DNA of 64,000 nt from an uncultured Candidatus Melainabacteria bacterium. Lineage in GTDB: Bacteria; Cyanobacteriota; Vampirovibrionia; Gastranaerophilales; Gastranaerophilaceae. The DNA is taken from contig CANOTP010000005.1 in assembly GCA_947570135.1 (NCBI GenBank), positions 62,001-126,000 on the forward strand. Reading direction: 5' to 3'. This document shows positions 7,166 to 62,607 of this stretch, in pieces; position 1 is the first letter of the stretch, and each line of letters begins with the position of its first letter. Under the pieces are notes generated by a model. The model made no database searches. It saw nothing but the letters and a program-made list of their open reading frames with translations, and was not told the DNA's origin. Made by a program: the position numbers and the translations under genes.

Positions 7166-8284
7166 GTATTCTTGTGTTTTAGTACGTATTTCTTTATCGA
7201 CTGCAAAAATCTCATCAATTGTCGGGTTGATGACAGTTGAATGGGATGACATCATTTTTTCAACTATTGAATAAATGTCGTAGAGTTTAATTTTGTTATC
7301 CAAGAATGCAAAAACGGCTTCTTCATTTGCAGCGTTAAAGCATACAGGCATGCTGCCTCCTGTTGTCCCTGCAGTGTATGCCATTTTTACTCCGGGGAAT
7401 TTTTCATAATCTGGTTTTTCAAAATCAAGTCGTGCAATTTCTGAGAAACTGAAACTTTTTGATTTAATTCCCTCATAGCGTTCAGGATAAGTTATTGCGT
7501 ACTGAATAGGGATATGCATACTAGGTAAGCCAAGTTGCGCGATAACGCTGCCGTCTGCGTATTCAATAGCCGAATGAACAATGCTTTGAGGATGAATTAC
7601 CACATCAATTTTATCGTACGGCATGTTAAACAAATGATGTGCTTCTATTATTTCTAAACCTTTATTTATCAGGGTTGCAGAATCAACCGTGATTTTTCTG
7701 CCCATATTCCACCTTGGGTGAGCGAGAGCCTCTGCGACTGTTGCGTTTTTCATATCATCAATTGTTTTATGTAAAAACGGTCCGCCGCTTGCTGTTATGA
7801 TAAGTTTCTCAACTTGCGAGATATCTTTTATACATTGATGTATTGCGCAGTGTTCGCTGTCTACGGGGATAATTTTTACCCCTGCTTTTTTCGCTGCACT
7901 CATAACAATATCTCCTGCCATAACAAGTGTTTCTTTGTTTGCAAGTGCGATATCTATGCCGTTTTCTATGGCTTTTAGGGTTGGTTTTAAGCCGATTTTA
8001 CCCGATACTGCAACCAGTATAATATCATTTTCTTTATTTGAGCATATTTCTTCTAAACCATCAGGACCTTGAAGGGTTTTTATACCCTCAATTTTTATTT
8101 CTTTGTTTGCGCAAATGTATTTTGGTTTAAATTTAAGAGCTTGTTGTTTTAAAAGTTCAACATTACTGCCTCCTGCAAGGGCTATTATTTCAAATTTATC
8201 CTGAAGTTTTTCTATAACTTCAAGCGCTTGGGTTCCGATTGAACCGGTTGAACCGAGAATGCTTATTTTTCGTTTATTTGTCAT
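7142..8284 (-). CDS. dxr: 1-deoxy-D-xylulose 5-phosphate reductoisomerase
   Basis: This enzyme converts DXP to MEP in the non-mevalonate isoprenoid pathway using NADPH and a divalent metal. ILGSTGSIG is the NADPH-binding loop. VDSEH carries metal ligands, ASGGPF is the substrate loop, and NKGLEIIEAHHLF and HPQSIVHS are conserved catalytic-domain blocks. The 380-residue length is normal. Its ATG overlaps the TGA of the upstream histidine kinase (ATGA), so the two are translationally coupled, which is an unusual partnership for dxr. Confidence 0.97.
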   Translation of the reverse strand: MTNKRKISILGSTGSIGTQALEVIEKLQDKFEIIALAGGSNVELLKQQALKFKPKYICANKEIKIEGIKTLQGPDGLEEICSNKENDIILVAVSGKIGLKPTLKAIENGIDIALANKETLVMAGDIVMSAAKKAGVKIIPVDSEHCAIHQCIKDISQVEKLIITASGGPFLHKTIDDMKNATVAEALAHPRWNMGRKITVDSATLINKGLEIIEAHHLFNMPYDKIDVVIHPQSIVHSAIEYADGSVIAQLGLPSMHIPIQYAITYPERYEGIKSKSFSFSEIARLDFEKPDYEKFPGVKMAYTAGTTGGSMPVCFNAANEEAVFAFLDNKIKLYDIYSIVEKMMSSHSTVINPTIDEIFAVDKEIRTKTQEYIKGRIYK

Positions 8285-9999
8285 AATATTTTCCTGTGTA
8301 TTTCCTGTTCTTCAAGCTTTTCTGTCATAACGGGAAGGGCAAAGTGGAAGCTTGAACCTTTTTCTTCTTCACTGTCACACCAAATTGTGCCTTTGTGAGC
8401 TTTAATAAGCTGTTTTGCAATCGGTAAGCCTAAGCCTGTTCCGCCGACTTTGCGAGATAGAGAGTTTTCTATCTGGGTAAATTTGTCAAAAGCTTTTAGC
8501 AGGTTTTCTTCCTTAATTCCTATACCTTCATCTATTACGCTTACTATGATATAGTTTCCGCTGAGGGCTTTCAATTCATTTTCAAAGTAAGGATTTAGTG
8601 TAATTTCATTCGCATTTTGTAATTTTGATTGAATTGTAATAGATTTTCCGCGTGGAGTGAATTTAATCGCATTTGATACAAGATTTGTTAAAACCTGACC
8701 CAAGCGTTGAGAGTCAGCGTAAATATCAGGAAGATTTTCCTGTTCGTTTGCGCTGAATATAATTTCATGTTCTTTTGCAACACAATCAAAGTTTGTTTTA
8801 ACGTTTTCTATTACGGAATGAATGTTCATTAATTTGTAATTAAAGTCCATTTTTCCGGCTTCAATTTTATTGATATCAAGAATGTCGTTAATTATATTTG
8901 TAAGGTTTTCGACGTTGCGTTTTGCCATATCAATAAATTTGATTGCGTTTTCGCCTAAAGTTCCGCATCTTCCGCTTGCTAAAATACTTAGCGCATTTTT
9001 TATCGGAGTTAACGGAGTTCTTAATTCGTGTGATACGATTGAAATGAACTCTGATTTAACACGTTCAAGTTTTTCCAGTTCTTCGTTTTTTTCGATAATT
9101 TCTTTATAAAGTCCCGCACTTTTTAGAGGCAGTGAAACCTGTTGGACAATTGTTTGGAAATACGTTGCATCATCTGTTGTAAACGGGTTTTCTTTAAAGA
9201 TTTCTATGCATCCGAAGAAATTATCCCCTAAATCAATCGGAGCAAACATATTATCGTATTGAAAAATCGTAAATGTGAATTTGTTATTCGGGTTTTTTAT
9301 GTTTTTTATTATTTTTAATTCTTTATCATTGATTTCAAACGGCGGAGTAGAGTTTTCAAAAAGCGATTTATAATTGAGTATTGCGCGGAGTTTTAAGGCG
9401 CTCATAAGTTCTTCTGATATATCGTAAAGCGAATTTACTATCAAAACAGGTTCATTTTCAAACCCGAATGAAATAGTGCATGCTAAATCAAAACTTAAAG
9501 ATTTATCAAGGCCTTCTGTCATGTAGGTTAAAAGTTTTTTTGTATCAAGTGTTCCTGCAAACTGAGAACTTGTGCTGTATAAAACATTTAATCTGTAAAG
9601 GCTGTCAGCCAGGTCTTTGTTTTTCCCTGATAAAACATCTAATTTTTCTTTTGTTTTGAGATGAGAGTTGATAGTTGACAGAATTAACTCATCCGAAAAC
9701 GAAGATAAGATAAATCCTGAAATATATTTTGAAACCTCATCATCTGCCGTTTTCCCGTCAGAAAGTAACAGAATCTGCGCGTTATCAAGCTGGGATTTAA
9801 TTTTTTTAATTGTTAGGTTTAAGTTTAAAGATTCAATTTTTTCATCAATTATAAAAACATCGGGCGGTTCAACTTCAATTAAATCAAGTACTGATGTTTG
9901 ATTACAGCAAAAATTAAACTTGAACGGAATTTTATTCAGCAAGCTTTTGTATTTTTCTGAAACAGAATCATTTTCTGAAATAAGTAAAATATTCCCCAT
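8281..9999 (-). CDS. Histidine kinase with N-terminal pseudo-receiver and GAF-like domain
   Basis: Residues 1-120 form a receiver-like domain with Asp52 in VFIIDE. The conserved C-terminal lysine is replaced (ILSSFSDE), so it may not be phosphorylated normally. Residues 130-300 look like a GAF sensor domain. A short coiled coil precedes HisKA with His324 in SIVSHELRTP. HATPase_c follows with the N box NLVSNAIKF, G1 DEGIG and G2 GGTGLGL. No membrane segments are visible, so it senses a cytoplasmic cue. The start at 9999 (MGNILLISEN) begins the receiver fold. An in-frame TTG 60 bases upstream is possible but would add an unrelated leader. It overlaps dxr by 4 bases. Confidence 0.9.
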   Translation of the reverse strand: MGNILLISENDSVSEKYKSLLNKIPFKFNFCCNQTSVLDLIEVEPPDVFIIDEKIESLNLNLTIKKIKSQLDNAQILLLSDGKTADDEVSKYISGFILSSFSDELILSTINSHLKTKEKLDVLSGKNKDLADSLYRLNVLYSTSSQFAGTLDTKKLLTYMTEGLDKSLSFDLACTISFGFENEPVLIVNSLYDISEELMSALKLRAILNYKSLFENSTPPFEINDKELKIIKNIKNPNNKFTFTIFQYDNMFAPIDLGDNFFGCIEIFKENPFTTDDATYFQTIVQQVSLPLKSAGLYKEIIEKNEELEKLERVKSEFISIVSHELRTPLTPIKNALSILASGRCGTLGENAIKFIDMAKRNVENLTNIINDILDINKIEAGKMDFNYKLMNIHSVIENVKTNFDCVAKEHEIIFSANEQENLPDIYADSQRLGQVLTNLVSNAIKFTPRGKSITIQSKLQNANEITLNPYFENELKALSGNYIIVSVIDEGIGIKEENLLKAFDKFTQIENSLSRKVGGTGLGLPIAKQLIKAHKGTIWCDSEEEKGSSFHFALPVMTEKLEEQEIHRKIL

Positions 10000-10077
10000 A
10001 ATTTTATTGTAAATTGAGTAAAATTTTTGGCAAGTTATTAAAATTTCTATAAAATTCAAAATGAATCTTTTTCTATT

Positions 10078-10165: not shown

Positions 10166-10486
10166 GTCGAAAAATTTTGTATACTTAAAGAGTAATCAGT
10201 TGAGAGGCAATCATTTCAACGGTTTACGGGTTGATGATATATGTGTATTTATCTGAACGGTAGTCGAAAAGAGGAAATAAGAAAGAATGTTATTTTTGCT
10301 ATTTGAAATTTTCTATAGGGTTTAACTTATAATATTTATCCCCTACTCTGCATTAATTTACTATCTATAACTCCCGGAGGGGAGCAAATGGCACTCCTCC
10401 GCCTTTTTTTAAGCGGAATTATTATTAACTTTTGGTATGGAGGTTCAAGGTACGATGAAACTTATTAAAAGATTAAAGGTCGAGTG
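10166..10486. promoter_or_regulatory. Untranslated leader of the phage-like cassette, with internal terminator
   Basis: No protein gene is seen. ATCATTTCAAC and GTTGATGAT (about 10212-10240) form a small hairpin. CGGAGG (10375-10380) pairs with CCTCCG (10396-10401), followed by 7 Ts, giving a plus-strand terminator upstream of the first cassette gene. Either a separate RNA ends here, or cassette expression depends on reading through this site. Confidence 0.45.
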
Positions 10487-10690
10487 ATGAAATTGTCGCC
10501 GAGAAAATTAGAGATATTGACTCTGCTCGCCCGCGGATTCACGGATAAAGAAATAGCATTAAAATTAAATATTTCCAAAAGAACGGTTCAAACACATATA
10601 TCCTCAATTTTAACAGGTTTAAATGCCAGAAATCGAGTGAATGCTGTTGTTTTATATATGGCATCTCACCCGAGATGGAAAGTGAAATGA
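10487..10690 (+). CDS. LuxR/GerE-type helix-turn-helix regulator, DNA-binding domain only
   Basis: This 67-residue protein is just the GerE domain: LSPRKLEILTLLARGFTDKEIALKLNISKRTVQTHISSI in pieces matches the four-helix LuxR fold, including the recognition helix KRTVQTHIS. There is no sensor or receiver domain. It stands first in the phage-like cassette and is the only regulator there, so it is the likely activator of the virion genes. AAAGG precedes the ATG at 10487. A GTG at 10484 is an alternative start. Confidence 0.85.
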   Translation: MKLSPRKLEILTLLARGFTDKEIALKLNISKRTVQTHISSILTGLNARNRVNAVVLYMASHPRWKVK

Positions 10691-10704
10691 GGTAAAAATC
10701 TTCT

Positions 10705-11196
10705 ATGGTAAAAAGAATTATTCTACACTGGAGTGCCGGCAGGTATTACCCCGGTGATTTTGAAAAACAATTTTATCATTATCTTGTGGATGTTGACGGG
10801 CAGATACATAAAGGAAAATACAAACCCGAAGATAATGATAATTGTAATGACGGAAGTTATGCCGCACATACAGGTGGCGGTAATACGGGTTCTATCGGGG
10901 TTTGTATGTGTGGTATGTACGGTTTTAAATCAAAATCTGCCGTTGGGAATTTCCCGATTGGTAAGGTTCAGTTTGAAGCTTGTATGAAATTATGCGCCGA
11001 ACTTTGTCAAAAATATAATCTCGGGGTTAATTCACAGACTGTTTTAACACATTATGAATTTGGCTTGGCTAATCCCAAATCAACCAGCAGCGGGAAAATA
11101 GATATAATTCATCTTCCGCCGTACCCTTGGGTTGCAAAGGAAGATGTGGGAAGTTTTATCCGTACAAAAGTTCGTTGGTACAGAGAAAAATTATAA
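10705..11196 (+). CDS. N-acetylmuramoyl-L-alanine amidase (phage-type Amidase_2 endolysin)
   Basis: This 163-residue single-domain amidase cleaves the bond between muramic acid and the stem peptide. Zinc ligands are expected in ILHWSAG and in the late block IDIIHLPPYPW. HTGGGNTGSIGVCMCG is the conserved core, and VLTHYEF supplies another family histidine. There is no signal peptide, so release would need a holin. It is the second gene of the cassette, 14 nt after the HTH gene, and supplies host lysis. Confidence 0.88.
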   Translation: MVKRIILHWSAGRYYPGDFEKQFYHYLVDVDGQIHKGKYKPEDNDNCNDGSYAAHTGGGNTGSIGVCMCGMYGFKSKSAVGNFPIGKVQFEACMKLCAELCQKYNLGVNSQTVLTHYEFGLANPKSTSSGKIDIIHLPPYPWVAKEDVGSFIRTKVRWYREKL

Positions 11197-11208
11197 GAGG
11201 TTATTATT

Positions 11209-12732
11209 ATGGATGTTAATTATTTTGATTTATCGGGTGGAATCAATCAGGCTTCCACAAAAACCGAACTTGGCTTGAATCCGAAAACGATTTTCTGGTC
11301 TGATTCTAAAAACGTGGAAGTTTATAATAATAAGGGTGTTATTAAACAAAAAGGAAATACTTTGTTTGTTGAATTACCTGTATCAGAAGAGATTACAGGT
11401 ATGTGTGAAATTGAGTCTGACGGGATTTATAAACTTGTTATTACAACAATTTCAGGTAAAATTTATATTTATTCAACATTTGATGACAGTTTAACTTTGC
11501 TTGAAAAAACATTAAGCGGTAAAAGAGTCTTGTTCGCACCGTTTATAAGAGGAATTCTGATTGCAACAGAATCGGATGCTATGTTTTATATTAAAAACAA
11601 TGCAACTTATGAAGTTGTTGATTGTAACCTGAATGATCGCAGCGGAAATGTTTTGTATCCTGATTGTATAACTGTTTATAAAGGCAGAGTCTGGTGTGCG
11701 AAGGATTCTACAATATATTATTCGGCATTGGGGTCATACAACGATTTTACAACAGAAGATGATGCGGGATATATCAATGATTTTCACACCGATACCGCAG
11801 ATATTGTTGCAATGCATACTTATAAGGATTACCTGGCTGTTTATAAACGAGAAAGAGTGTATTTATTAACGGGTTCTAATCCGTCAGATTTTTCTATCAC
11901 GCTATTTGCAGATAAGGGAACTGTTGCAAGAGGTTCTGTAGTAAATGTTGATAACAAGCAGTTTTTCTTAAGTAACGGAATTTACGCTCTTGAACAAGTT
12001 GGCGAGTTAAATCAAATAAGACTGGGATCGGAAATTTCAATAAATATCAGAGAAGAATTTAATAACTTTGACACATCCCGTATGAAAAACGCTTTTGCCG
12101 TTCATAATCAGAATAAAAATCAGATGTTGTTTTTCTTCCCGTATTTAGACAGTGCATATTATAAAACTATCTGGGTAAATGATTATGTAAACCGAGCTTG
12201 GTATAAAAGGGTTGTGCCGCAAAAGGTAACGACAGCTTGTATGTTTAATTCTTACGTTGTAACGGCAGATAACGAAGGTAAAATTTACCGCGAGTTTTAC
12301 GGAACAACGTTTAACGGGAAACCGATTGATTTTATGTGGAAATCACCGTTTTTGTCACTCGGAAATGTTCTTCACCGCAAAATTATTGATGAATTTTATT
12401 TTGTACTTGATGATTTATATGACAATAAGTTTCATTTCAGCTTGTATAAGGATTACGACAGCGAATACGGAGATGATAAAGAGTTAATTTACGCAAGACA
12501 TTATACTCACTTTATCTGGGCGCCTGAGGATGATGAATCAGGCAACCCTCAGTATTGTTGGAGTTCCGATAATTCGGAAGTTCCCGTGTGGCCGATAACA
12601 TCAAGCGCTATGGAAAAAGCCGAAATCTGCGGAAGTAATTACTCAATACAAGTTTGTATAGAAGGCTGTGAAATTTCAGATAATTGTGCAATTATCGGGC
12701 TTCAATTCAGAGAAATTTATAACGATGACTAA
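11209..12732 (+). CDS. Phage tail hub / packaged-DNA stabilization protein (P22 gp10-like)
   Basis: This 507-residue protein starts MDVNYFDLSGGINQAST, a typical opening of podovirus tail-hub or stabilization proteins. It is rich in short beta-strand repeats resembling a propeller (for example YKDYLAVYKRERVYLLTGSN, GKIYREFYGTTFNGK). No signal or membrane segment is seen. It lies between the amidase and the coat protein. By analogy with P22 gp10 it would plug the portal after DNA packaging. The assignment rests on general sequence character and context rather than catalytic residues. Confidence 0.6.
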   Translation: MDVNYFDLSGGINQASTKTELGLNPKTIFWSDSKNVEVYNNKGVIKQKGNTLFVELPVSEEITGMCEIESDGIYKLVITTISGKIYIYSTFDDSLTLLEKTLSGKRVLFAPFIRGILIATESDAMFYIKNNATYEVVDCNLNDRSGNVLYPDCITVYKGRVWCAKDSTIYYSALGSYNDFTTEDDAGYINDFHTDTADIVAMHTYKDYLAVYKRERVYLLTGSNPSDFSITLFADKGTVARGSVVNVDNKQFFLSNGIYALEQVGELNQIRLGSEISINIREEFNNFDTSRMKNAFAVHNQNKNQMLFFFPYLDSAYYKTIWVNDYVNRAWYKRVVPQKVTTACMFNSYVVTADNEGKIYREFYGTTFNGKPIDFMWKSPFLSLGNVLHRKIIDEFYFVLDDLYDNKFHFSLYKDYDSEYGDDKELIYARHYTHFIWAPEDDESGNPQYCWSSDNSEVPVWPITSSAMEKAEICGSNYSIQVCIEGCEISDNCAIIGLQFREIYNDD

Positions 12733-12790
12733 ATAAAATCATCACCACTTATGTTTGTTTATAGTTTTTAAAAAAGGAAAGGAAAAGAAA

Positions 12791-13687
12791 ATGACAGAAA
12801 CAGCAAAATCAAGTTATTCAGCATTTATTCCACAGGTGTGGAGTAAAAAATTGAATCAAATGTTAGAAAAAAACTGTGTTATGATGCAGTGTGTTAACAA
12901 AAATTGGGAAGGTGAAATCAAAAATCAGGGTGATACCGTAAAAATTATTACACCTGCTGCGGTTACGGTTTCAACTTTGACAAGTGATAATTTATCATAT
13001 TCGTCATTGACTCCGACTTCTCAGGATTTGGTAATTGACCAGAAGAAGTTCTTTGCATTCAAAATTGATGATGCGTCTGCGGTTCAGGCAAATTCAGATA
13101 TTATGGAAGCTCATTTAACAAATGCAAAAAAGGCAATCGAAGTTGTACAAGATTCTTATTTGTTAGGTCTTCACACGGATGTCACATCTGCTAATACTGT
13201 GGGTTCTGAGTCTTCACCTGTTACATTAGACACAAAAACAATTTATTCTAACTTTGTAAAACTTGCTTTGGCATTAAAAAATTCAGATGCTGTTTACGCA
13301 GGCGTTCGTCCTTGGGTTGTAATCAATCCTGATATCGAAGCTTACTTATTACAAAGTCCGGAATTTATTTCAGCATACAAAGTTGCTGATGAAACCTTAA
13401 GAGAAGGTGCTATCGGCAGAATTGCAGGTATGGATGTATTGGTAAGCACAAATTTAACTGATGTTGACGGTAAATATTACGTTCTTGCAGGTACAAATGA
13501 TGCGATTACCTTCGCTTCCCAGCTTGCTAAGATTGAAAGCCTTAGAGATAAAGACAGTTTCTCTGATTTAGTCAGAGGTTTATATTTGTACGGTGCCAAA
13601 ACCGTTCAACCTAAAGCTTTAGCAAAAATGATTGTTACAGCTTCGGAAAGTGAAGTTGTTGCAACTCCTGCTGATCCGACAGAATAA
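12791..13687 (+). CDS. Major capsid protein, P22 coat-like HK97 fold
   Basis: The ATG at 12791 follows AAAGGAAAGG. An upstream in-frame TTG is not a plausible start. The 298-residue product has coat-family blocks: FIPQVWSKKLNQMLEK at the N-terminus, GEIKNQGDTVKIITP, LVIDQKKFFAFKIDDASAVQAN, and a C-terminal RIAGMDVLVSTNL with a strand-rich P-domain. It forms the icosahedral shell. A 13-bp perfect terminator hairpin follows, as expected for a highly expressed coat gene. Confidence 0.88.
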   Translation: MTETAKSSYSAFIPQVWSKKLNQMLEKNCVMMQCVNKNWEGEIKNQGDTVKIITPAAVTVSTLTSDNLSYSSLTPTSQDLVIDQKKFFAFKIDDASAVQANSDIMEAHLTNAKKAIEVVQDSYLLGLHTDVTSANTVGSESSPVTLDTKTIYSNFVKLALALKNSDAVYAGVRPWVVINPDIEAYLLQSPEFISAYKVADETLREGAIGRIAGMDVLVSTNLTDVDGKYYVLAGTNDAITFASQLAKIESLRDKDSFSDLVRGLYLYGAKTVQPKALAKMIVTASESEVVATPADPTE

Positions 13688-13704
13688 TCATGCTTTAGCT
13701 TTAT

Positions 13705-13749
13705 AAATGTACTCTCATTCCGAGGGTAGTGTTTGAGAGTACATTTTTT
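13705..13749 (+). terminator. Strong terminator after the coat gene
   Basis: A perfect 13-bp stem (13705-13717 with 13734-13746) and a T-run to 13749 lie inside the cassette. It would lower expression of the genes downstream relative to the coat protein. Confidence 0.9.
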
Positions 13750-13767
13750 AAATAAGAAGAGGTTTTT

Positions 13768-14016
13768 ATGTTTAAAAATGTGAAAAAACAAATTAAAGAA
13801 TTGGCAAAAAAAGCGGTAGAAGTTGCGGAAGCACAACTTGGTAGCGGACAGGGACAGGCAAAAAAGAAACTTGCAATAGATTATATTTTGAAAAATTTAC
13901 CGTTTCCAACATTTGTTAAAAGTATTATATCAATTCTTTTATCAAGCTTTATAGATGATGTTATCGAAATTTCTGTCAAATACTTACAAAATTTGCCAAA
14001 TGAAGAAGGAGAATAA
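13768..14016 (+). CDS. Small phage protein, LL-H-type holin-like
   Basis: This is an 82-residue protein. The segment AVEVAEAQLGSGQGQAKKKL resembles the C-terminal part of LL-H-family holins, followed by an amphipathic or membrane-prone stretch (FVKSIISILLSSFIDD). It lacks the usual N-terminal membrane anchor, so the holin call is weak. A coat-associated or head-assembly helper is another option. AGAGG precedes the ATG, and the next gene follows after 5 nt. Confidence 0.45.
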   Translation: MFKNVKKQIKELAKKAVEVAEAQLGSGQGQAKKKLAIDYILKNLPFPTFVKSIISILLSSFIDDVIEISVKYLQNLPNEEGE

Positions 14017-14021
14017 GTTTT

Positions 14022-14690
14022 ATGCAAAATCAAATTAGCGGTGCTGTTCCACCGCAATTACAAAATGGTATTTCATCGCAGACCGTGAGTCCGCAGCAAA
14101 ACTCATATAATGATATGTTTTATCAGCTCGAGCAGTCAATAGGCGCAGATTTTCAAAGATTGAAAAATCTTGTTGGTCAAGGTTCTATATCACAAGAACA
14201 AGGACAATATTTGCTGGCACAATTAGCTCGGAAGGCACAACAGATTAACAACTACAAAAATTCACTACAAACCGGCGAGATTGCTCCTGATGCGTCTGTA
14301 CAGGCAGTTTTACCTTCTCAAAGCCCAATGGAAATGTTCAATCAGGAACGTCCGGGATTTTTTGACGGTGACGGGCGAGCTGATGTCTTGAATTATATCA
14401 AGGGTTTGGATATGGACAAAGATGAAATATTTCAAATATCTCAGCTTGTAGAAAAACTGGAAAATTCTGCTGTTGATAAGTATTTGAAAAAATCCGCATA
14501 CGAAAAGACATTGAATGACGAGAACGCAGCCGCAAAGAGAAAATTGACGTCTTACGCTCAAAACGCATCTTATGACGGTAATATGAACAGGATCTTTACT
14601 CGTGAGGATATCGGTAATATGAGTGGTGAGGAATTTACTCAAAACGAAAAAGCCATAATGGAACAATTAAGACAAGGCTTAATCAAGTAA
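14022..14690 (+). CDS. Phage structural protein, possible scaffolding protein
   Basis: This 222-residue protein is Gln-, Asn- and Ser-rich at its N-terminus, then helical and coiled (FQRLKNLVGQGSISQEQGQYLLAQLARKAQQI), with a basic helical C-terminus (EFTQNEKAIMEQLRQGLIK). The helical character, polar tail and position next to the coat gene fit a scaffold or internal head protein. I cannot assign a named family. Confidence 0.5.
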   Translation: MQNQISGAVPPQLQNGISSQTVSPQQNSYNDMFYQLEQSIGADFQRLKNLVGQGSISQEQGQYLLAQLARKAQQINNYKNSLQTGEIAPDASVQAVLPSQSPMEMFNQERPGFFDGDGRADVLNYIKGLDMDKDEIFQISQLVEKLENSAVDKYLKKSAYEKTLNDENAAAKRKLTSYAQNASYDGNMNRIFTREDIGNMSGEEFTQNEKAIMEQLRQGLIK

Positions 14691-14763
14691 CTTTTGGTGT
14701 ATGCCAATCAAAGTTCGGGTAAGACTTTTCTCTTATCCGAACTTTTCGAAAAAAGGAGAAACT

Positions 14764-15402
14764 ATGAAATATTTAGAACTTATAAACAGATGTCTGCTTG
14801 AGTTGAATTACAAAAAGGTAAACGCATTCTCAGAACTTGTAAAAAATGATCATAAACGAATTATGAATATCTTAAATATTATCAACAAGGAAATTTGTAA
14901 TGCCGAAGGGTGGAATTTTCTTCTCAGGAGAACAAAGATTCAGCTTCCCGCACACACAACAGAAGTTGAAAACAGTGTAAACGGCAGGATTAAGTATTTG
15001 TTTATTGATGGAAAAAGGTATGACTTCACGGAAGATTTTGAACCGTTTTTGACAAAATCTGCAAAATCCGCTACCTATTCATCTTTTTCGAATAAATTAT
15101 TATTTCCCGAATTTGATAAAGATGTAACTGTTGATATTATTTATTATACAAGATTCTGTGCAAGTGATGTTAACAACAACGAGAAGTTTGAACTTGAAGA
15201 TGCAACGGACTCTTCTCTTATACCCGAGCCGTTTGCAGAACAGTTATTGGTTTACGGAACATGCTTGAGATTAAAAGGCAACCCTCAATATTACAGGTTC
15301 TCATACTGGATGAGCATGTACAAAGAAGCGCTTGCAAACTTACGTTCAAAGACTGCTGCTTCAACCGATAATGCTCCCGTGATAAGTCTTTTCAGGCAAT
15401 AG
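14764..15402 (+). CDS. Head-tail adaptor / tail accessory protein (podovirus gp4-like)
   Basis: The start MKYLELINRCLLELNYKKV at 14764 follows AAAGGAGA. A longer frame from 14701 would add an unlikely leader. The opening helix (LELINRCLLELN) is characteristic of small adaptor proteins that dock on the portal ring. FAEQLLVYGTCLRLKG near the C-terminus fits the same group. The product is 212 residues and cytoplasmic. Its role would be joining the portal to the short tail. Confidence 0.6.
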   Translation: MKYLELINRCLLELNYKKVNAFSELVKNDHKRIMNILNIINKEICNAEGWNFLLRRTKIQLPAHTTEVENSVNGRIKYLFIDGKRYDFTEDFEPFLTKSAKSATYSSFSNKLLFPEFDKDVTVDIIYYTRFCASDVNNNEKFELEDATDSSLIPEPFAEQLLVYGTCLRLKGNPQYYRFSYWMSMYKEALANLRSKTAASTDNAPVISLFRQ

Positions 15403-15529
15403 GGCAAAAAAAACAGGAAGTCGTTTTCATTCCCCCCTGTTAAGATTTACACTAGCCGAAATATAAATAGCATGTTTATTATACAAATTATTTGAGAAAA
15501 AAACAAATTATAATAAGAAATGTAACAAG

Positions 15530-15964
15530 ATGAAACAATTAACACAACAACAAAAAAGGTTTGTAAATGAGTATATAATGACGCTTGACGGTGAATTGTC
15601 AGCAAAAAAAGCAGGATACAAGTGCAAGGATTTAAACGCATTTGCAAATGAACTTTTACAAAAAGATTACATAATCCATGCCATAAAAACGCAGTTGAAA
15701 TTACAAATAGATTCATTAAGCGTAAAAAAGGGTTATGTAGTACAAAAACTTCTGCAAATTGCAGAGTTCTCGCTTGAAACGGAAGATATTCTCGATAAAG
15801 AGGGCAATTCAACCGGCAAGGTTAAATTAAGGGATTCATCTGCGGGTTTAAAAGCCTTGGAAAGTCTTTGTAAATATATGGGATTTTCTAACGTCAAAGG
15901 CGAAGATGAATATAAAGAAGCTAAAATTATTACTATTTCAAATCTTGATGATGACAAAATTTAA
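15530..15964 (+). CDS. Terminase small subunit
   Basis: LTQQQKRFVNEYIMTLDGELSAKKAGY is the Terminase_2-type N-terminal DNA-binding block. A helical oligomerisation region and SLCKYMGFSNVKGEDEY near the end complete a 144-residue protein of normal size. It recognises packaging DNA and recruits TerL. It is unusual that it is separated from the large subunit by a hypothetical gene, a GNAT gene and the portal gene. No clear Shine-Dalgarno is seen before the ATG. Confidence 0.82.
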   Translation: MKQLTQQQKRFVNEYIMTLDGELSAKKAGYKCKDLNAFANELLQKDYIIHAIKTQLKLQIDSLSVKKGYVVQKLLQIAEFSLETEDILDKEGNSTGKVKLRDSSAGLKALESLCKYMGFSNVKGEDEYKEAKIITISNLDDDKI

Positions 15965-15983
15965 TTTATGAAAGGTATTTTCA

Positions 15984-16337
15984 ATGAAAGAAAATAAAGA
16001 AATAGAAAAATTATTACTTGATGATGTTGCATACAATAAACTTATGAAAACAAAGATTGAAAAAGAGTTTATTAAAGAAGTCGAGTCAGCCAAATCTGTT
16101 AAGAATAAAGAAATAACTGATATTAAAAAAGTTCCGCAAGAGCTTTTGTTTTCAAAGAATGCGGTTTATGAAATAATCAACAAAACAAGTAAAACAAAAT
16201 CTTATATCACAGGAGTTCAGGCTGAAGGATTTTTGGGTACAAAATATACAGAGCGCGAAAGTCTTATTAAGGGTGAATCTGATTCTTTTGTAAACGGTAA
16301 TAATTACATAAAGTTTGTAAAAATCAAAAATGTGTAA
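15984..16337 (+). CDS. Hypothetical phage protein
   Basis: This is a 117-residue charged protein. The N-terminal half is helical and Lys/Glu-rich (MKENKEIEKLLLDDVAYNKLM). The C-terminal half contains SYITGVQAEGFLGTKYTERESLI, and it resembles no family I can name. It lies 19 nt after the small terminase gene, and the GNAT gene begins within its last codons. Its placement suggests a packaging or connector role, but nothing in the sequence proves one. Confidence 0.55.
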   Translation: MKENKEIEKLLLDDVAYNKLMKTKIEKEFIKEVESAKSVKNKEITDIKKVPQELLFSKNAVYEIINKTSKTKSYITGVQAEGFLGTKYTERESLIKGESDSFVNGNNYIKFVKIKNV

Positions 16338-16848
16338 ATTCATAAATATCAGTCAAAATTTTCTTCTGACTTTGCGCTATATGCCTGATGTTAAAAGGTG
16401 TTACCGCAAATTTTATAAGTATCTTCAGGATGATTTTTCACCTCCTTTCTTATGTGACTTTTACTCTCTTATTAATGAAAAATCACCGTACTTTTGGGTT
16501 ATCACTGATTTTTATGACAAATTCATGGGGTTTGTTTATCTGGATAATTTCACGGGAAACGGGAAGAGCTTATATTGCGCGGAATTAACGACATGTTTTG
16601 ACAGATGTGCATGGGGAAGTTTCACCAAATATAGCGCAAAGATTTTTTTAAAGAAGTGTTTTAATGAATTGGGTTTATACAAAATAAAAGCACAGATTTA
16701 CCCTGAAAATCACAGGGTTCGGACTTTGTTAAAAAACAGCGGATTTGTATATGAATCAACGCTGAAAAATGAAACACTGAGATGCGGGAAACCTCAGGAC
16801 ATTGAGGTTTACTCGCTGTATAGGGATTACTACTATAAAACGAGGTAA
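16330..16848 (+). CDS. GNAT-family N-acetyltransferase in the packaging module
   Basis: This 172-residue protein has a GNAT-like core: WVITDFYDKFMGFVYLDN (strands 2-4), then FTKYSAKIFLKKCFNELGLYKIKAQIYPENHRVRTLLKNSGF in pieces, matching the helix 3 to strand 5 region where acetyl-CoA binds, and a closing strand (QDIEVYSLYRDYY). The classical R/Q-x-x-G-x-G/A loop is poorly conserved (CAWGSFTKY). The ATG overlaps the previous gene by 8 bases, so it belongs to the cassette. Its substrate is unknown. It could modify a capsid or host protein. Confidence 0.7.
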   Translation: MCKFINISQNFLLTLRYMPDVKRCYRKFYKYLQDDFSPPFLCDFYSLINEKSPYFWVITDFYDKFMGFVYLDNFTGNGKSLYCAELTTCFDRCAWGSFTKYSAKIFLKKCFNELGLYKIKAQIYPENHRVRTLLKNSGFVYESTLKNETLRCGKPQDIEVYSLYRDYYYKTR

Positions 16849-16851
16849 AAA

Positions 16852-18543
16852 ATGAATAATATAACAAAAAAAGAAGACAAAACTTCGATAAATTATATCG
16901 AAGAACAGTTTTTAACAAGTAATATCATCAGTAAATATGATTATTACGAGAATGAGAGAAGATCACAATTATCAGATAACAGATTGGTAAAACATGCAAT
17001 CTACAGTTCTGATATACCTGCCGTTAACGGTTGGGATTGCAGAATTCAGCTTCCCGATATATATGAACTTGCACAAACCTTAAAATCTCATATTGTGCAA
17101 AATCTGTATTCACATCCTGACGGAATGTTTGATGTTGAGGGAACGGATTTTGAAACTCAAAAGTTTGCCAATATGCAAAAAGCCATGCTGGTTAAAACTT
17201 TTGAAGCAATGAATATTGAAGATGAAATGGAAAAAATCATTGATTCTGTTGTAGAAACAGGTGAAGTTACATTGTTTGTCGGCTGGGAAACCAAATATAG
17301 AAAAACCCGTCGTGCGTTGAGCTTAGAAGAACAAATTTTAAAAGAAACAACGGATACTTTTGTCGTGGAAGACAAAATGATTTATGACAACGCGAAAATA
17401 AGGTTTATCGGGTATGAAGATTTTGTATTCGATAGAACTGAAGCCGCTAATTGGGACAGTTGTCCGAAAATTTACAGAACGTATCAGACTCTTGATGAGA
17501 TTAAATCAAACAAATCAAATAATATGCTCAATGATGAAAAACTGGAAGTCTTGAAAGGAGTGGTGGCAGGAAAGAGTTACAAAAACTCTAATAAAACAGT
17601 ATCGGAAAGAAAAATCGAGGTACTTGAATACTGGGGCGATATTGAGCTTGACACAGGCGAAGTATTAAAAAACAAATTGATTGTAATTGCGGGAAGAAGT
17701 GTTCTGATAAGATTTGAGGACAATCCTTTCATTATAAATCCGTTTATCCACGCAAACATTATTGAATGCCCGTCAACAGGGCGCGGAATTTCACCGTTAA
17801 GAGTTGCGCTTATCTTAAATAATATATCTTCAACTATATTAAATAAACAGTTAGATGCGCTTGCTCTGATGATGAATCCTCCGTATTTGGCACCAAAAGG
17901 TTGTTTTAAGGGGCAGCAGGAAGTCCGCCCGGGTAAAATTATTGAATATGATGCATCATTGATGACGTCTGTTCCGACACCTATTTCGTTTGATAAAGCG
18001 ATGCAGGGCTGGGATTTCTTGAACTACTTTAAAACAACTGTTGAAAGTGCTACGGGAATATTTAAAAACATGGCGGGAAATGTTCAAAATCTTGACAGAA
18101 CGGCAACTGAAATTAATTATTCCGTAAACGGTCAGGAAGCAAGGTTAAATATGCTGCTTGAATCAATAAACCGTAAGGTTATTGTTCCTATGGTTGAAAA
18201 AACAGCCGAACTTATTTCAAATTTCAAGCTCGGTAAAGAATCAATTATGACAAATAGCAGAGGAAAAATCTTCTTTGTTGAGGTTGATGATAATGTCAGA
18301 AATGCTAATTATGTCTACAGATACGGCGACAGAAAAGCAACGTTTGAGCGTAAATCCAAATTGAAAGAACTTTTTGAAGTAATTCAATCGTTTACGAAAA
18401 TTGATGTTGTCGCACAACGCATTGATTGGCTTGAGTGTTTTAAATTTGCCATGGAACAGTACGGAATCGAAAACGCTAATAATTTTCTGACAGAAGAAAA
18501 CAATTCTCAGCCTCAGGTTCAAAATGAAACAGTCAAAAAATAA
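16852..18543 (+). CDS. Phage portal protein, podovirus type
   Basis: This 563-residue protein forms the dodecameric ring through which DNA enters the head. Supporting features are the early polar helix, the wing-type region (KMIYDNAKIRFIGYEDFVFDR), the conserved stem region FIHANIIECPSTGRGISPLRVALILNN, then LMMNPPYLAPKG and LDRTATEINYSVNGQEARLNMLLE, typical of P22-like portals near the crown. It starts 3 nt after the GNAT gene and is followed by the large terminase. Confidence 0.85.
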   Translation: MNNITKKEDKTSINYIEEQFLTSNIISKYDYYENERRSQLSDNRLVKHAIYSSDIPAVNGWDCRIQLPDIYELAQTLKSHIVQNLYSHPDGMFDVEGTDFETQKFANMQKAMLVKTFEAMNIEDEMEKIIDSVVETGEVTLFVGWETKYRKTRRALSLEEQILKETTDTFVVEDKMIYDNAKIRFIGYEDFVFDRTEAANWDSCPKIYRTYQTLDEIKSNKSNNMLNDEKLEVLKGVVAGKSYKNSNKTVSERKIEVLEYWGDIELDTGEVLKNKLIVIAGRSVLIRFEDNPFIINPFIHANIIECPSTGRGISPLRVALILNNISSTILNKQLDALALMMNPPYLAPKGCFKGQQEVRPGKIIEYDASLMTSVPTPISFDKAMQGWDFLNYFKTTVESATGIFKNMAGNVQNLDRTATEINYSVNGQEARLNMLLESINRKVIVPMVEKTAELISNFKLGKESIMTNSRGKIFFVEVDDNVRNANYVYRYGDRKATFERKSKLKELFEVIQSFTKIDVVAQRIDWLECFKFAMEQYGIENANNFLTEENNSQPQVQNETVKK

Positions 18544-18567
18544 AAATTTTCGAAAGAGGTGTCAATT

Positions 18568-19857
18568 ATGAAATATAAATTATTGGATGCTCAGCGAAAG
18601 TTTTTAGAAATACCTCACAATTATTCTCTTGATGTCGCGGTATATCAAGGCGGGTACGGCTCCGGCAAAACATTTGCCGGAGCCTTGCTCGGGCTTTTGC
18701 TTGCGCTAAAGTTCCCCGGAATTACGGGGTTAGTCGGTGCGCAAACTTACACTCTTGTGCGCGATACCACATTAAAAACTTATTTTGAGCATTTAGAAAG
18801 TATCGGATTTGTTGATAAAGTTGATTATAAATGGGTTAGTGCCGAGCAAAAACTTGTTTTTCGCAACGGTTCTGAGATTCTTTTCAGACATTTTGACGAA
18901 CCTAATAAGTTAAAGTCCTTGAACTTGGGTTTTGTAGAAATCGAAGAGATGTCAGATGTTCCCTATGAAACATTTAAGATGCTTCTTGCCAGAATGCGCC
19001 AAAAAAAGAAAAAATCCTGGAAAAATTTTACCTATAGGATTTTCGGACACACAAACCCCGAACTTCAAAAAGGCTGGATTTATAAAACCTTTTTTGAAAA
19101 TCCTGCGCCAAACTACAGGGTTATCTGTGCGCCGACCACTCAAAATATTCACCTGCCCGAAGGGTTTTGTGATGAATTGAAAAAACTTTATGACAAAAGT
19201 TACTATGATATTTTTGTTATGGGAAAAACGGGGGATTATTCGACAAACCTTGTTGTAAAAGATTTTACGGATGAAAATGTTCGCGAGATTAAGTATCAAA
19301 AGGATTTAGACGTCCATATAAGCTGCGATTTTAACGTTGATCCTATGGCTTGGGTCTTGGCTCATAAAACGGATGATAAAGTTTTTTATTTTGATGAGCT
19401 TGTATTGGAAAACACTACAACCGCAAAGACTTGTGAGGAATTTTATAACAGATATCCCGAACATAAAGGCAAAATTATCGTAAACGGTGACGCATCAGGC
19501 GATAACAGAAGCTGTACGAGTGAATACACAAATTATGTAATTATTAAAAAAGCACTTGAATCTTACGGATATGATGTCGAAATTAAGATAAAATCTTTTA
19601 ATCCGCCGATAAAAAACCGCGTTGCGGCGTTTAATGCAAAAGTTCGAAACGCGGACGGCGAGGTCGGTTTATATGTTTCTCCAAAATGTGAAAAACTTTT
19701 GTATAACATCTATAACCTTCGCTACCTTGAGGGTTCGTCAAAGATAGATGTGCCGACATATAGTCAGATTAAACAGATTAAAGAACTTAAGTTTCTATCA
19801 CACCCGTTTGATGCGGCAAGTTATCTGGTTGATTTTTATTGGCCGATAGTACTTTAG
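18568..19857 (+). CDS. Terminase large subunit
   Basis: The packaging ATPase domain has Walker A GGYGSGKT (28-35) and Walker B in LGFVEIEEM (about 120-128). The C-terminal RNase H-like nuclease domain shows acidic residues in SCDFNVDPMAW and NGDASGDN, and a final one in HPFDAASYLVDF. At 429 residues it is a complete enzyme. AAAGAGG precedes the ATG at 18568, and a GTG at 18559 is too close to that site. Both active centres look intact, so packaging could be functional. Confidence 0.93.
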   Translation: MKYKLLDAQRKFLEIPHNYSLDVAVYQGGYGSGKTFAGALLGLLLALKFPGITGLVGAQTYTLVRDTTLKTYFEHLESIGFVDKVDYKWVSAEQKLVFRNGSEILFRHFDEPNKLKSLNLGFVEIEEMSDVPYETFKMLLARMRQKKKKSWKNFTYRIFGHTNPELQKGWIYKTFFENPAPNYRVICAPTTQNIHLPEGFCDELKKLYDKSYYDIFVMGKTGDYSTNLVVKDFTDENVREIKYQKDLDVHISCDFNVDPMAWVLAHKTDDKVFYFDELVLENTTTAKTCEEFYNRYPEHKGKIIVNGDASGDNRSCTSEYTNYVIIKKALESYGYDVEIKIKSFNPPIKNRVAAFNAKVRNADGEVGLYVSPKCEKLLYNIYNLRYLEGSSKIDVPTYSQIKQIKELKFLSHPFDAASYLVDFYWPIVL

Positions 19858-19882
19858 GGATTCTTGAAAGGAGAGAGATAAA

Positions 19883-20113
19883 ATGGAACAATTTGTATAT
19901 TATGCCCCGATAATAGTTGTTGTGCTGGTGTTTTTGATACAGGAGCGAATTGTTGTAACGCCCGAGCAGTTAGAGAAAAAACATCGTGAAATTATACGTG
20001 ATGTTGAAAAAAGGTTTGCAACATTAAATAGTCTTGATGACTTAAAAGGACAGTTTTTTGAGATGAAAGACAAGATTGATAAGATTTATGATTGTCTGAT
20101 TATTACAAAGTAG
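19883..20113 (+). CDS. Small membrane-anchored coiled-coil phage protein
   Basis: This 76-residue protein has one transmembrane helix (YYAPIIVVVLVFLI, about residues 6-20), then a charged helical region (EQLEKKHREIIRDVEKRFATL). This topology is shared by some holins and Rz-type spanins, but no lipobox or proline-rich segment is present. AAAGGAGAG precedes the ATG. It could assist lysis together with the amidase, but it lies far from that gene. Confidence 0.55.
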   Translation: MEQFVYYAPIIVVVLVFLIQERIVVTPEQLEKKHREIIRDVEKRFATLNSLDDLKGQFFEMKDKIDKIYDCLIITK

Positions 20114-20131
20114 AAAGGAAAGGAAAATAAA

Positions 20132-21490
20132 ATGGAACGCGATATATTTGAAGAGTTAAGAAAAGAACTTGAAAATAATAATTTAACTCCCGAAGAAAAA
20201 ACAAGGTTGATAAAACAAGCGGGTGAAGAGTATAACAGACAGGCTGATAATCAATTCAGGCTTGCTGTTGCGAAATACTCATTAGGTGCCGCAATTGAAG
20301 CAACTGCAATGGCTTTACCTATGGGTGCAATAGGTGTTGGCGGAAAAGTTGCAGGAAAAGTCGGGCTTGCTGCACTGGAACGTAAATTTGGCAGAAAGAT
20401 AGTTCAAGATACCCTGACAAGTGCTATTGATAGTGCTGTAGCTTCTGCTGCATTTGGTGTTGGCAGAGGATTGCTTGAAGATAAAAATATTTTGACAAGT
20501 TCAATCATAGATGCTGTTTTGGGACTTGGTATGGGTGGAGTTACAGGAGCTTCTATGGCAAACCTTCAAAAAATCCTTCATGAAATAAACTTCCAAGCCT
20601 ATAAAGATCCGAAGATTTTAAACCAAGTTGGAAAGAAAAATGTAGTTAACGAAATAAAAAAATATTATAGTGGTTATATACAAGGAACCGTTGATTCACA
20701 TCCAAGAGTTGGAAAATATAAATTTGTTAAAAATGGTATAAAAGAAACTATAAACCAAAAATTTGATAAAGCATTGAATGTTGGACATTTAAAAAGTGAC
20801 ATGAAAAAAGCTGCTTATTTAGGCCCCGAGCCTTTGGGGCATGAGCGCAAACCCGGAGATATGACTTTACAATTTCATAGATTTAGGAAAAATGATACAG
20901 ATTATATTGTTAAAGAATTAAAATCCGGAGAGCTTAATTACCATATAGCAAGACCAGCAGCCTCAGACGTAAAAAACCCTGAAGTGGCTAACACCTTATT
21001 AGGGCAAGGCCTCCTTCAGGGTAGTGGAAAACTTCCACCTACAAAAAGTATAAGCGATTATTTAGAGGAAAACAACCCTGCCAAGTGGCTAAATTCTCAA
21101 ATAACTACAGAAATTTTGGATACAACTCATGTGGCAAAGGATAAAATAGATGATGCCATAAATGATTATCATGCGCAGGCTGTAGAAGATGCTGTCCCAG
21201 GGGTTTTTAAAGGTCGGGTATATGAAGAATTTTCTCCTGATAATTATAATGATTATAAAAATCCTATGACAAATAGTCCAAAAATTTATACTTTGGAAGA
21301 GTTTGAAAATTTATCACCTGAAGAATATGAAGGTAATAAATATGAAATTCATGCACAAATTGGTGAAATCGGTTTACCAACGGAAAAAGAAGTAGAAACT
21401 TCCAAGACAAAAAAACAAAAAAATGACACAAAAGGTAAAAAAGGACGTTGGATAACTAAAAACGGTAATCATATATTTATCGAAGAATAA
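20132..21490 (+). CDS. Large C-terminal cassette protein with glycine-rich hydrophobic segments
   Basis: This is a 452-residue protein. Residues 45-85 and 95-150 are hydrophobic and Gly/Ala-rich (ALPMGAIGVGGKVAGKVG, DAVLGLGMGGVTGASM), a pattern seen in phage ejection or internal virion proteins. The middle (KPGDMTLQFHRFRKNDTDYI) might be a small enzymatic domain. The end (GKKGRWITKNGNHIFIEE) is a C-terminal motif style often found on phage minor head proteins. Codons at 20976-21022 fold into a hairpin related to two non-coding hairpins downstream. The function is unproven. Confidence 0.6.
   Translation: MERDIFEELRKELENNNLTPEEKTRLIKQAGEEYNRQADNQFRLAVAKYSLGAAIEATAMALPMGAIGVGGKVAGKVGLAALERKFGRKIVQDTLTSAIDSAVASAAFGVGRGLLEDKNILTSSIIDAVLGLGMGGVTGASMANLQKILHEINFQAYKDPKILNQVGKKNVVNEIKKYYSGYIQGTVDSHPRVGKYKFVKNGIKETINQKFDKALNVGHLKSDMKKAAYLGPEPLGHERKPGDMTLQFHRFRKNDTDYIVKELKSGELNYHIARPAASDVKNPEVANTLLGQGLLQGSGKLPPTKSISDYLEENNPAKWLNSQITTEILDTTHVAKDKIDDAINDYHAQAVEDAVPGVFKGRVYEEFSPDNYNDYKNPMTNSPKIYTLEEFENLSPEEYEGNKYEIHAQIGEIGLPTEKEVETSKTKKQKNDTKGKKGRWITKNGNHIFIEE
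20976..21038 (+). repeat. In-frame palindromic repeat inside the last cassette gene
   Basis: ACCCTGAAG (20976-20984) pairs with CTTCAGGGT (21014-21022) around the apical core CCTTATTAGG. A second small hairpin (GTGGAA/TTCCAC, 21024-21038) follows at once. The core matches the non-coding hairpins at 21632-21669 and 21671-21712. Confidence 0.6.
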
Positions 21491-21548: not shown

Positions 21549-21946
21549 AAATAATCACAACTCTTGAGAATACTCCCCAGACTACAAGTCTGGATATTCT
21601 CAAGAGTGCTGCTACTATAAATTTCCTGCCCTGACGGAGCTACAGCCTTATTAGGCCAGGCTCCCGTCAAACTGAAGTGGCTAGCAGCTTATTGGCTGAG
21701 GCCTCCTTCAGTAGGAAACCCTATACGCCATCAAAAGACGCAGAGTCTAAATCCCAACGGAAATTTATTTGGCTGTCAAGAGTACAGTACGGACTACTAG
21801 CCCGCCCTCCCTTGAAAGCACATGGAATTCTGTTCTGCTTACTCGGACCAAAACCGAGCGCTTGATATCAGAAACCAATATTATTATGAACGATTATCCA
21901 AAAAATCTCAACCCTGCCATGTGGCTATTGTTACCCGAACTCGGAC
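21549..21946. repeat. Hairpin-rich non-coding region with repeats of the last cassette gene
   Basis: A 13-bp stem (21560-21572 with 21595-21607) encloses a second 7-bp stem. Two adjacent hairpins follow: 21632-21669 (TGACGG/CCGTCA) and 21671-21712 (ACTGAAG/CTTCAGT). Both have a CTTATT-containing apex. CTCGG/CCGAG makes another at 21842-21858. A 19-base stretch at 21909-21927 matches 21073-21091 at 18 positions. The region is visibly richer in GC than its surroundings. Two short open frames here are probably not genes. It could be a decayed gene fragment, a palindromic repeat cluster or a structured RNA. Confidence 0.55.
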
Positions 21947-61969: not shown

Positions 61970-62607
61970 GATTTTTCTTTCAAAATTTCGATTTCTGCTT
62001 TCAATTTATTAATTTCACATCTTACAGGGTCAGGAATCCTGTTATGCATCAGATTTCCGTTTGAATCCACAACCGCGCGGTGAACAATTCTTCCGGGAAC
62101 TCCGACAACAGTTGAGCGTTCGGGGACATCGTCTACCACAACAGAACCTGCTCCGATTCGCACATAATCTCCAATATTTATATTCCCCAAAACTTTAGCA
62201 CCTGCTCCGACAATAACGTTATTACCTAATGTCGGGTGGCGTTTGCCCGATTCTTTACCTGTTCCGCCTAATGTAACCTGTTGATAAATTAAAACATCAT
62301 CACCAATTACCGTTGTTTCCCCGATTACAACGCCTTCGCCGTGGTCTATAAAGAATCTCCGTCCAATCCTTGCCCCCGGGTGAATTTCAATCCCTGTGAC
62401 AATTCTTGTAAGATAAGAGATTATTCTTGGAATAAGCGGGATATTCCATTTATACAGTCTGTGCGCAAATCTGTATGCCACAAGTGCGTGCAATCCCGGG
62501 TAACAGAGGATTACCTCCAACAAATTTTTTGCCGCAGGATCATTATCATAAATGACTTTTATATCCTCTTTAACTTTCGTTATACCGCGTTTAATTGTAC
62601 TGAACAT
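61966..62607 (-). CDS. cysE: Serine O-acetyltransferase
   Basis: This 213-residue protein makes O-acetylserine for cysteine synthesis. The helical N-terminal part contains [16 protein letters not shown]. The left-handed beta-helix has [27 protein letters not shown] in pieces, with the catalytic histidine in [11 protein letters not shown], then [18 protein letters not shown] for serine and acetyl-CoA contacts. It is the shorter bacterial form, without the extra N-terminal region of E. coli CysE. It overlaps the tyrS stop by one base. Confidence 0.95.

Follow-up and report, generated by a model that had tools for sequence, protein, structure and literature searches.

A vertically inherited, podovirus-type particle operon of Gastranaerophilales that probably loads polymorphic effectors through a scaffold-type tag

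Why does the chromosome of an uncultured Candidatus Melainabacteria bacterium of the order Gastranaerophilales carry, between host genes, a compact set of genes for a phage head, DNA packaging and lysis? The stretch that raises this question, referred to here as the window, comprises 64,000 nucleotides (positions 62,001 to 126,000 of contig CANOTP010000005.1, assembly GCA_947570135.1) and contains, at 10484-21490, 14 intact, co-directional open reading frames (ORFs) that make up a podovirus-type particle operon, with a divergent histidine kinase (HK) gene and dxr on one side and a TlyC-type gene on the other. We consider it likely that this is a host-domesticated, vertically inherited operon for a podovirus-type particle resembling gene-transfer agents (GTAs), and that polymorphic effectors are loaded into the particle by way of a scaffold-type tag. 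Gene functions are those predicted by homology, and we infer regulation and DNA content. The genes of the operon and the two tags encoded in it are as follows.

10484..10690, + strand: stand-alone LuxR/GerE helix-turn-helix protein, 68 aa, first gene of the operon (GerE, 5.3e-18; at the operon start across genera)
10705..11196, + strand: N-acetylmuramoyl-L-alanine amidase, endolysin (Amidase_2, 2e-14; phrog_5867, 7.5e-31)
11209..12732, + strand: tail nozzle/hub of the short-tailed podovirus type (AlphaFold pTM 0.80; Foldseek best E 1.9e-17)
12791..13687, + strand: major capsid protein, MCP (phrog_267, 6.9e-52)
13768..14016, + strand: holin (phrog_6918, 1.6e-9)
14022..14690, + strand: p222, putative all-helical scaffold (AlphaFold model; end module in the portal-to-capsid position of phage contigs)
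14553..14687, + strand: scaffold C-terminal module, the tag, p222 residues 178-222
14701..15402, + strand: p233, head-tail adaptor-like protein, weak (phrog_446, 0.0023; Pfam Tube, 0.011; position)
15530..15964, + strand: small terminase subunit, TerS (PF03592, 1.5e-16)
15984..16337, + strand: p117, conserved operon protein (position kept across loci)
16330..16848, + strand: GNAT acetyltransferase (Acetyltransf_3, 2.5e-9; also in related phages, contigs L189 and L191)
16852..18543, + strand: portal (SU10_portal, 7.3e-21; phrog_332, 1.1e-29)
18559..19857, + strand: large terminase subunit, TerL, ATPase and nuclease motifs intact (Terminase_3, 1.5e-20)
19883..20113, + strand: p76, N-terminal hydrophobic segment and helical-looking tail (accompanies TerL on relocation)
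20132..21490, + strand: p452, variable effector-type protein (phrog_342, 1.1e-6; LPD3, 0.016; tag match)
21245..21373, + strand: scaffold-type tag in p452, residues 372-414 (i-E 6.7e-10 in a two-sequence search; genome-wide E 7.7e-6)

The particle is assigned to the podovirus type because the AlphaFold model of its predicted nozzle matches podovirus tail proteins, the Foldseek matches in the PDB including the Pa223 tail, P22 gp10, Pam1 and T7 gp12. The original prediction, made from the letters of the sequence, had recognized the coat, portal, adaptor, both terminase subunits, endolysin and LuxR-type helix-turn-helix protein as intact and co-directional, and family matches bear this out, weakly in the case of the adaptor. 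Both active centers of TerL are present, as it had stated, and are preserved among homologues, with the Walker A motif GSGKT in 59/59 and the nuclease motifs CDFN and GD[AS]SG in 57/59 and 59/59, respectively. It was also right about the housekeeping-type neighbors on both sides, the unusually late place of TerL in the gene order and the lack of mobility genes: no integrase, repressor, replication gene or spike/fiber was found between HK/dxr and TlyC. A tailocin, consisting of a tail only, was rejected, since capsid, portal and terminase genes are present and under purifying selection. The LuxR/GerE protein, co-conserved at the operon start, is a candidate activator of the operon; the REC-like/HisKA kinase (8281-10059) was rejected as a regulator because it adjoins the operon in the bacterium's own genus only. 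For p76, a role as a lysis accessory is a guess.

How widely is the operon shared, and does it keep its place? The survey sample comprised 286 genomes of the order from 50 genera, with 32 genomes of the bacterium's own genus, and metagenome-assembled genomes in it may be mis-binned. TerL and MCP genes were present in 32/32 sampled genomes of the own genus, as single copies in nearly all, and where two copies were counted, as happened in a few genomes, these were gene fragments, a duplication of identical sequence or a second element only distantly related. Across the order, TerL was detected in 174/286 genomes (29/50 genera) and MCP in 129/286 (25/50 genera), and the gene order LuxR-amidase-nozzle-MCP-holin-p222-p233-TerS-p117-GNAT-portal-TerL-p76 is kept in more than 40 loci. 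In the own genus, the operon lies between HK and TlyC; in genera g2, g6, g10 and g11, it lies upstream of p697-secA, with ZIP and/or radical-SAM genes upstream of it where the contig is long enough, and genera g4, g8, g9, g19 and g34 show a partial match to this ZIP/radical-SAM-to-secA context. The original prediction had proposed looking for the same cassette at the same locus in relatives, and it is indeed conserved in genus and family, at a site common to several genera. An empty site in a close relative had been named as evidence against domestication, and one was found in genus g6, where genome G056 shows ZIP, one more gene, p697 and secA but cleanly lacks the cassette that G053 has in this place. 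Most simply, however, this reads as loss, since G056 is nested among cassette-bearing relatives and the site is common to several genera.

Inheritance and selection point in the same direction. In a tree that covered 34 genomes and was built on a concatenation of six operon proteins, every GTDB genus with at least two members was monophyletic, and operon distances followed those of rpoB, the single marker used for the host tree and backed by GTDB genus labels, with a Mantel r of 0.79 for the full set, 0.86 once the highly divergent g18 was excluded and 0.80 within the genus; 0/2000 permutations reached the observed r. Pairwise ratios of nonsynonymous to synonymous substitution rates (dN/dS; Nei-Gojobori, with dS high and partly saturated) were 0.006-0.033 for TerL and under about 0.08 for MCP and portal, compared with 0.03-0.06 for TlyC, the host gene at the flank, TerL being as low or lower; these strongly purifying values for coat, portal and TerL lie near that of the host gene, as would suit the domestication that the original prediction had suspected. 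Vertical inheritance of the operon and strong purifying selection on portal, MCP and TerL are thus supported by sequence comparison. Cargo gene p452, by contrast, gave 0.34-0.49 in the genus and 0.34 against its nearest relative.

The operon can also be divided. In six genomes (G050, G058, G098, G128, G176 and G284), TerL-p76 adjoins an alaS-sized or alaS-matching gene and the LuxR-to-portal part lies elsewhere, within other contigs and with host genes around it, both halves being intact; the TerL side was also seen beside alaS in G263. The alaS gene was identified by sequence beside TerL in G050, G098 and G128 and in one further gene cluster. We know of no autonomous phage built with TerL far from its capsid genes. 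A host function can be inherited as two intact, separate loci, and a phage genome cannot. With the operon split in this way, its genes could not be packaged there as a single short piece. The original prediction had cautiously proposed a domesticated particle, and candidate GTA, in a Gastranaerophilales-type host, and the conserved cassette and site, the purifying selection, the lack of an integrase and the split loci support it.

These findings bear on two further readings of the cassette. A commonplace defective prophage, or the remnant of a widespread temperate phage of this family, would account for the phage derivation of every structural gene and for the related phage contigs (L141-L191), but we regard it as very improbable: the cassette is present throughout the sampled genus, its dN/dS is near that of host genes, its tree tracks the host, its site is common across genera, the operon is split in two loci, host genes stand on both sides without an integrase, repressor or replication module in one contiguous element, and every TerL and MCP match in phage records was below 60% identity. 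A helper-mobilized satellite, such as a phage-inducible chromosomal island or a capsid-forming island, is scarcely credible; small size and the possession of capsid and terminase genes would suit it, but an integrase and replication module are absent, and the common site and the split locus speak against it too.

Elements of other kinds and doubtful labels surround the cassette in the databases. Distant TerL matches (about 56% identity; genera g14, g15 and g28) sit in differently built elements, and five such loci (L301, L304, L305, L309 and L310) represent another phage-type element with p507- and p76-like genes. The g14-type element, of which genomes of genus g14 have about one copy each, may be a prophage that is widespread or another element that has been domesticated. 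A search of viral contigs returned mostly the cassette itself or distant phages. IMG/VR contigs L112, L113 and L116, filed as viral, are pieces of host chromosome in which the cassette is followed by TlyC, and the filing of some such host loci as viral contigs calls for caution in the use of that resource. Three records labeled Muribaculaceae or Fusobacterium (L036, L086 and L091) contain the cassette or the part of it with TerL, accompanied in L036 by the HK flank, and look mis-binned or mislabeled.

What, then, might the particle carry besides DNA? The argument begins with p222. Its AlphaFold model is all-helical, with a 49-residue helix (133-181) and a C-terminal helix-turn-helix, and in phage contigs L184, L189 and L191 the protein encoded between portal and capsid, where a scaffold gene usually lies, ends in a p222-type module, at weak similarity (E ~1e-4). 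No significant match to p222 was obtained in PHROG, Pfam or phage records, and its position, its helical build and a weak resemblance to proteins of phages suggest that it is the scaffold. Between relatives, identical codons in the p222 gene are in excess (0.82 observed against 0.69 expected from amino acid composition; z, 11); this excess extends along the whole gene, while the dN/dS of p222 exceeds that of its neighbors, and gene conversion, a bias in codon use or an overlapping signal could account for it.

One or two copies of the module that ends p222, FTREQIGKMSGxEFxKNExxIMEQLRxGLI, are also present in variable proteins, among them p452. The p452 gene is no conserved structural gene and encodes a variable, tagged, effector-type protein with a Gly-rich, hydrophobic N-terminal part, a weakly LPD3-like middle, the scaffold-type tag and the C-terminal sequence 'GRWITKNGNHIFIEE'; the original prediction had missed both the scaffold tag and the toxin-like cargo. 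A genome-wide profile search gave nine tag matches in this genome, including four further tagged ORF regions far from the operon: GH108 (two tags), PBECR1-type (two tags), a split DUF6973 and L333, a 110-aa protein in which the tag is joined to a MuF-like domain. In relatives, tagged effector-type genes lie between housekeeping genes. Gene content varies in the slots next to TerL, and a single genome may have up to 16 tag matches. Enzyme domains found with the tag include GH108 (8e-24 and 4e-27), DUF6973 (4e-11), Lipase_3 (4e-8) and PBECR1 (1.5e-11), and a further type is transglycosylase-like, weakly so. Because the C-termini of P22-type scaffolds bind coat protein, effectors could enter the assembling head by a borrowed scaffold end; the sharing of the module is observed, and by analogy the tag is presumably a coat-binding, head-loading address. 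In the laboratory, fusion of enzymes to the C-terminal coat-binding domain of the P22 scaffold is used to load capsids; that procedure is engineered, whereas loading here would be natural and evolved.

The tagged genes also keep particular company. An LprI-type lysozyme inhibitor gene stands beside GH108 effectors in 3/3 cases and beside no other tagged gene (small n); one secreted family stands beside transglycosylase-like effectors in 3/3 cases (small n), and also beside 2/17 DUF6973 genes; and small membrane proteins are encoded beside 11/17 DUF6973 genes. None of these neighbor families was found beside 80 scaffolds, with the exception of one single-segment neighbor. Five or more unrelated enzyme types that share a tag and have family-specific neighbors amount, in sequence, to the pattern of polymorphic toxins, and we regard the neighbors as putatively immunity-like, pairing being seen for some families and the tagged enzymes being possible killers. 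PADLOC returned no match for six effectors. Four loci (L336, L338, L342 and L346) are built in reverse, with an N-terminal tag and a 'YTRxDGTxVxAHYR' motif followed by a C-terminal domain of no known type, and three of them have a small hydrophobic-looking ORF downstream.

Do tags and particle occur together? Among MCP-positive genomes, 97/129 had at least two tag matches; among MCP-negative genomes, 17/157 had any and 7/157 had at least two (Fisher p, 5e-30, two or more against any, the counts being inflated by shared ancestry). Genus g6 provides a contrast at close range, cassette-bearing members having 3-7 tag matches and G056 and G068, which lack the cassette, having 0.

We suggest the following course of events. 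A host signal, perhaps acting through the small LuxR protein, would turn on the operon; capsids would be assembled on the p222 scaffold, filled with DNA through the portal by TerS/TerL and closed by the adaptor and nozzle; and the holin and amidase would lyse the cell. Effectors from genes both within the operon and at other chromosomal sites would enter the head during assembly by means of their one or two copies of the tag, and the particle would eject DNA and effectors into related cells. There the effectors would act against RNA or the envelope, and siblings would be spared by the immunity proteins encoded beside the effectors. That a phage head has in this way been turned into an effector-injection system, with unlinked, immunity-paired toxins, a scaffold module as their address and DNA and toxins in one particle, seems to us an evenly balanced proposition; if true, it would be a means of delivery different from type VI secretion, contractile injection systems, tailocins and classical GTAs.

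Two rival accounts are narrower than this proposal. In a plain GTA, random host DNA would be moved between kin, the tagged proteins would be ejection or entry enzymes or virion parts, and the neighboring genes would protect against self-lysis only. The complete packaging machinery, strong purifying selection, vertical inheritance and split loci are all as expected of such an agent, a ComEC-type competence protein in the genome is a permissive hint as to DNA delivery, and there is a podovirus-like precedent in FpGTA of Faecalibacterium (PMC12946183). One would expect entry enzymes to be conserved, however, whereas the effectors vary between close relatives and are dispersed on the chromosome; a PBECR1 RNase-like domain among them and the family-specific, immunity-like neighbors also fit poorly, and we give this account a substantial but less than even chance. 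The other is a DNA-powered toxin injector, or 'head-ocin', selected for the killing of competitors, in which DNA would mainly supply pressure and its transfer would be incidental. The large numbers of tag matches, the effector-immunity pairing and a fast-changing cargo beside a slow-changing particle favor it, but the very strong constraint on TerS/TerL fits DNA delivery at least equally well and the killing is hypothetical; we consider it possible and, on balance, rather unlikely.

Several observations weigh against a GTA-like particle with tag-loaded effectors. The grounds for calling p222 a scaffold are position, anatomy and similarity at E ~1e-4, and neither Foldseek of its model nor a profile search found a significant match in the PDB; tag-coat binding is something that we infer. 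The co-occurrence statistics are inflated by the relatedness of the genomes, 32/129 MCP-positive genomes are without a second tag match, and genomes of genus g13 (G075, G099, G107, G154 and others) have 1-3 tags with no cassette detected, although these tags may be remnants or belong to a more divergent particle. In the genome studied here, the DUF6973 effector (L331) is broken into two frames, and no receptor-binding protein that would point to a delivery target was found between HK/dxr and TlyC.

How does the system compare with those already described? Few lineages are known to have GTAs, which, to our knowledge, have not been described as carrying polymorphic toxins; if the tag loads toxins, the operon would link GTAs with polymorphic toxins. 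GTAs have been defined by caudoviricete-derived proteins, a fully endogenized genome, often at several loci, mostly vertical inheritance, packaging of mostly random host DNA, a head that cannot hold the entire GTA genome and delivery of DNA to other cells (PMC9662315). The sequence-readable features of this definition are found here, namely, particle proteins derived from caudoviricetes, full endogenization (host flanks at the complete loci and, where the operon is split, TerL beside alaS) and co-diversification with the host (genus monophyly and congruence with rpoB), and we would class the system as GTA-like. RcGTA and other recognized GTAs are alike in their endogenized caudoviricete genes, vertical inheritance and, sometimes, several loci, but RcGTA has a 49-nm tail (PMC9662315), and for the present system DNA content and transfer are conjectural.

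A close counterpart by description is FpGTA, reported in 2026 and proposed as the first podovirus-like GTA-like element (PMC12946183). It likewise has an operon of about 10.5 kb with TerS, TerL, portal, scaffold, capsid and short-tail-type proteins and is distributed throughout a gut genus, but it belongs to another phylum, its lysis and receptor-binding genes are in a second operon, and the section consulted describes no tagged effector set, the comparison being one of descriptions rather than sequences. The present system, as set against that account, spans many genera and has TerL relocated in one sub-lineage. It would be a second podovirus-like GTA, from another phylum, and would go back to an ancestor of much of a family of gut bacteria; with the cassette seen in more than 100 sampled genomes, GTA gene flow in the gut could be tested with virome reads.

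As carriers of toxins, phages offer two parallels. MuF polymorphic toxins also have variable toxin domains, proposed to reside in phage heads, and immunity genes, but their address is an N-terminal MuF domain, with the toxin C-terminal to it and a temperate phage as the carrier (PMC5576092); here the address is the module that ends the scaffold, it usually follows the toxin, and the genes are host borne, many of them unlinked to the operon. Phage polyvalent proteins share PBECR and LPD-type domains and are thought to be packaged and injected, but their carriers are phages and conjugative elements, and the text describes no scaffold-derived tag and does not contain the word 'scaffold' (PMC5512222).

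Two features of the window lie outside these arguments. The 697-aa protein p697 (24089-26182) is encoded after p76 in most genera and accompanies TerL-p76 to alaS; it was rejected as a spike or receptor-binding protein, being a member of a multicopy family that is also found in genomes without the cassette and has no Pfam match. A literature search on Gastranaerophilales and 'gene transfer agent' found no paper. Finally, three short, related, palindrome-like repeats, of which none would be expected by chance, occur at 20985-21013, within the p452 coding sequence, and at 21637-21665 and 21678-21706, in the spacer before TlyC, and may be what is left of a former cargo gene or an element of the repetitive extragenic palindrome (REP)-like kind.

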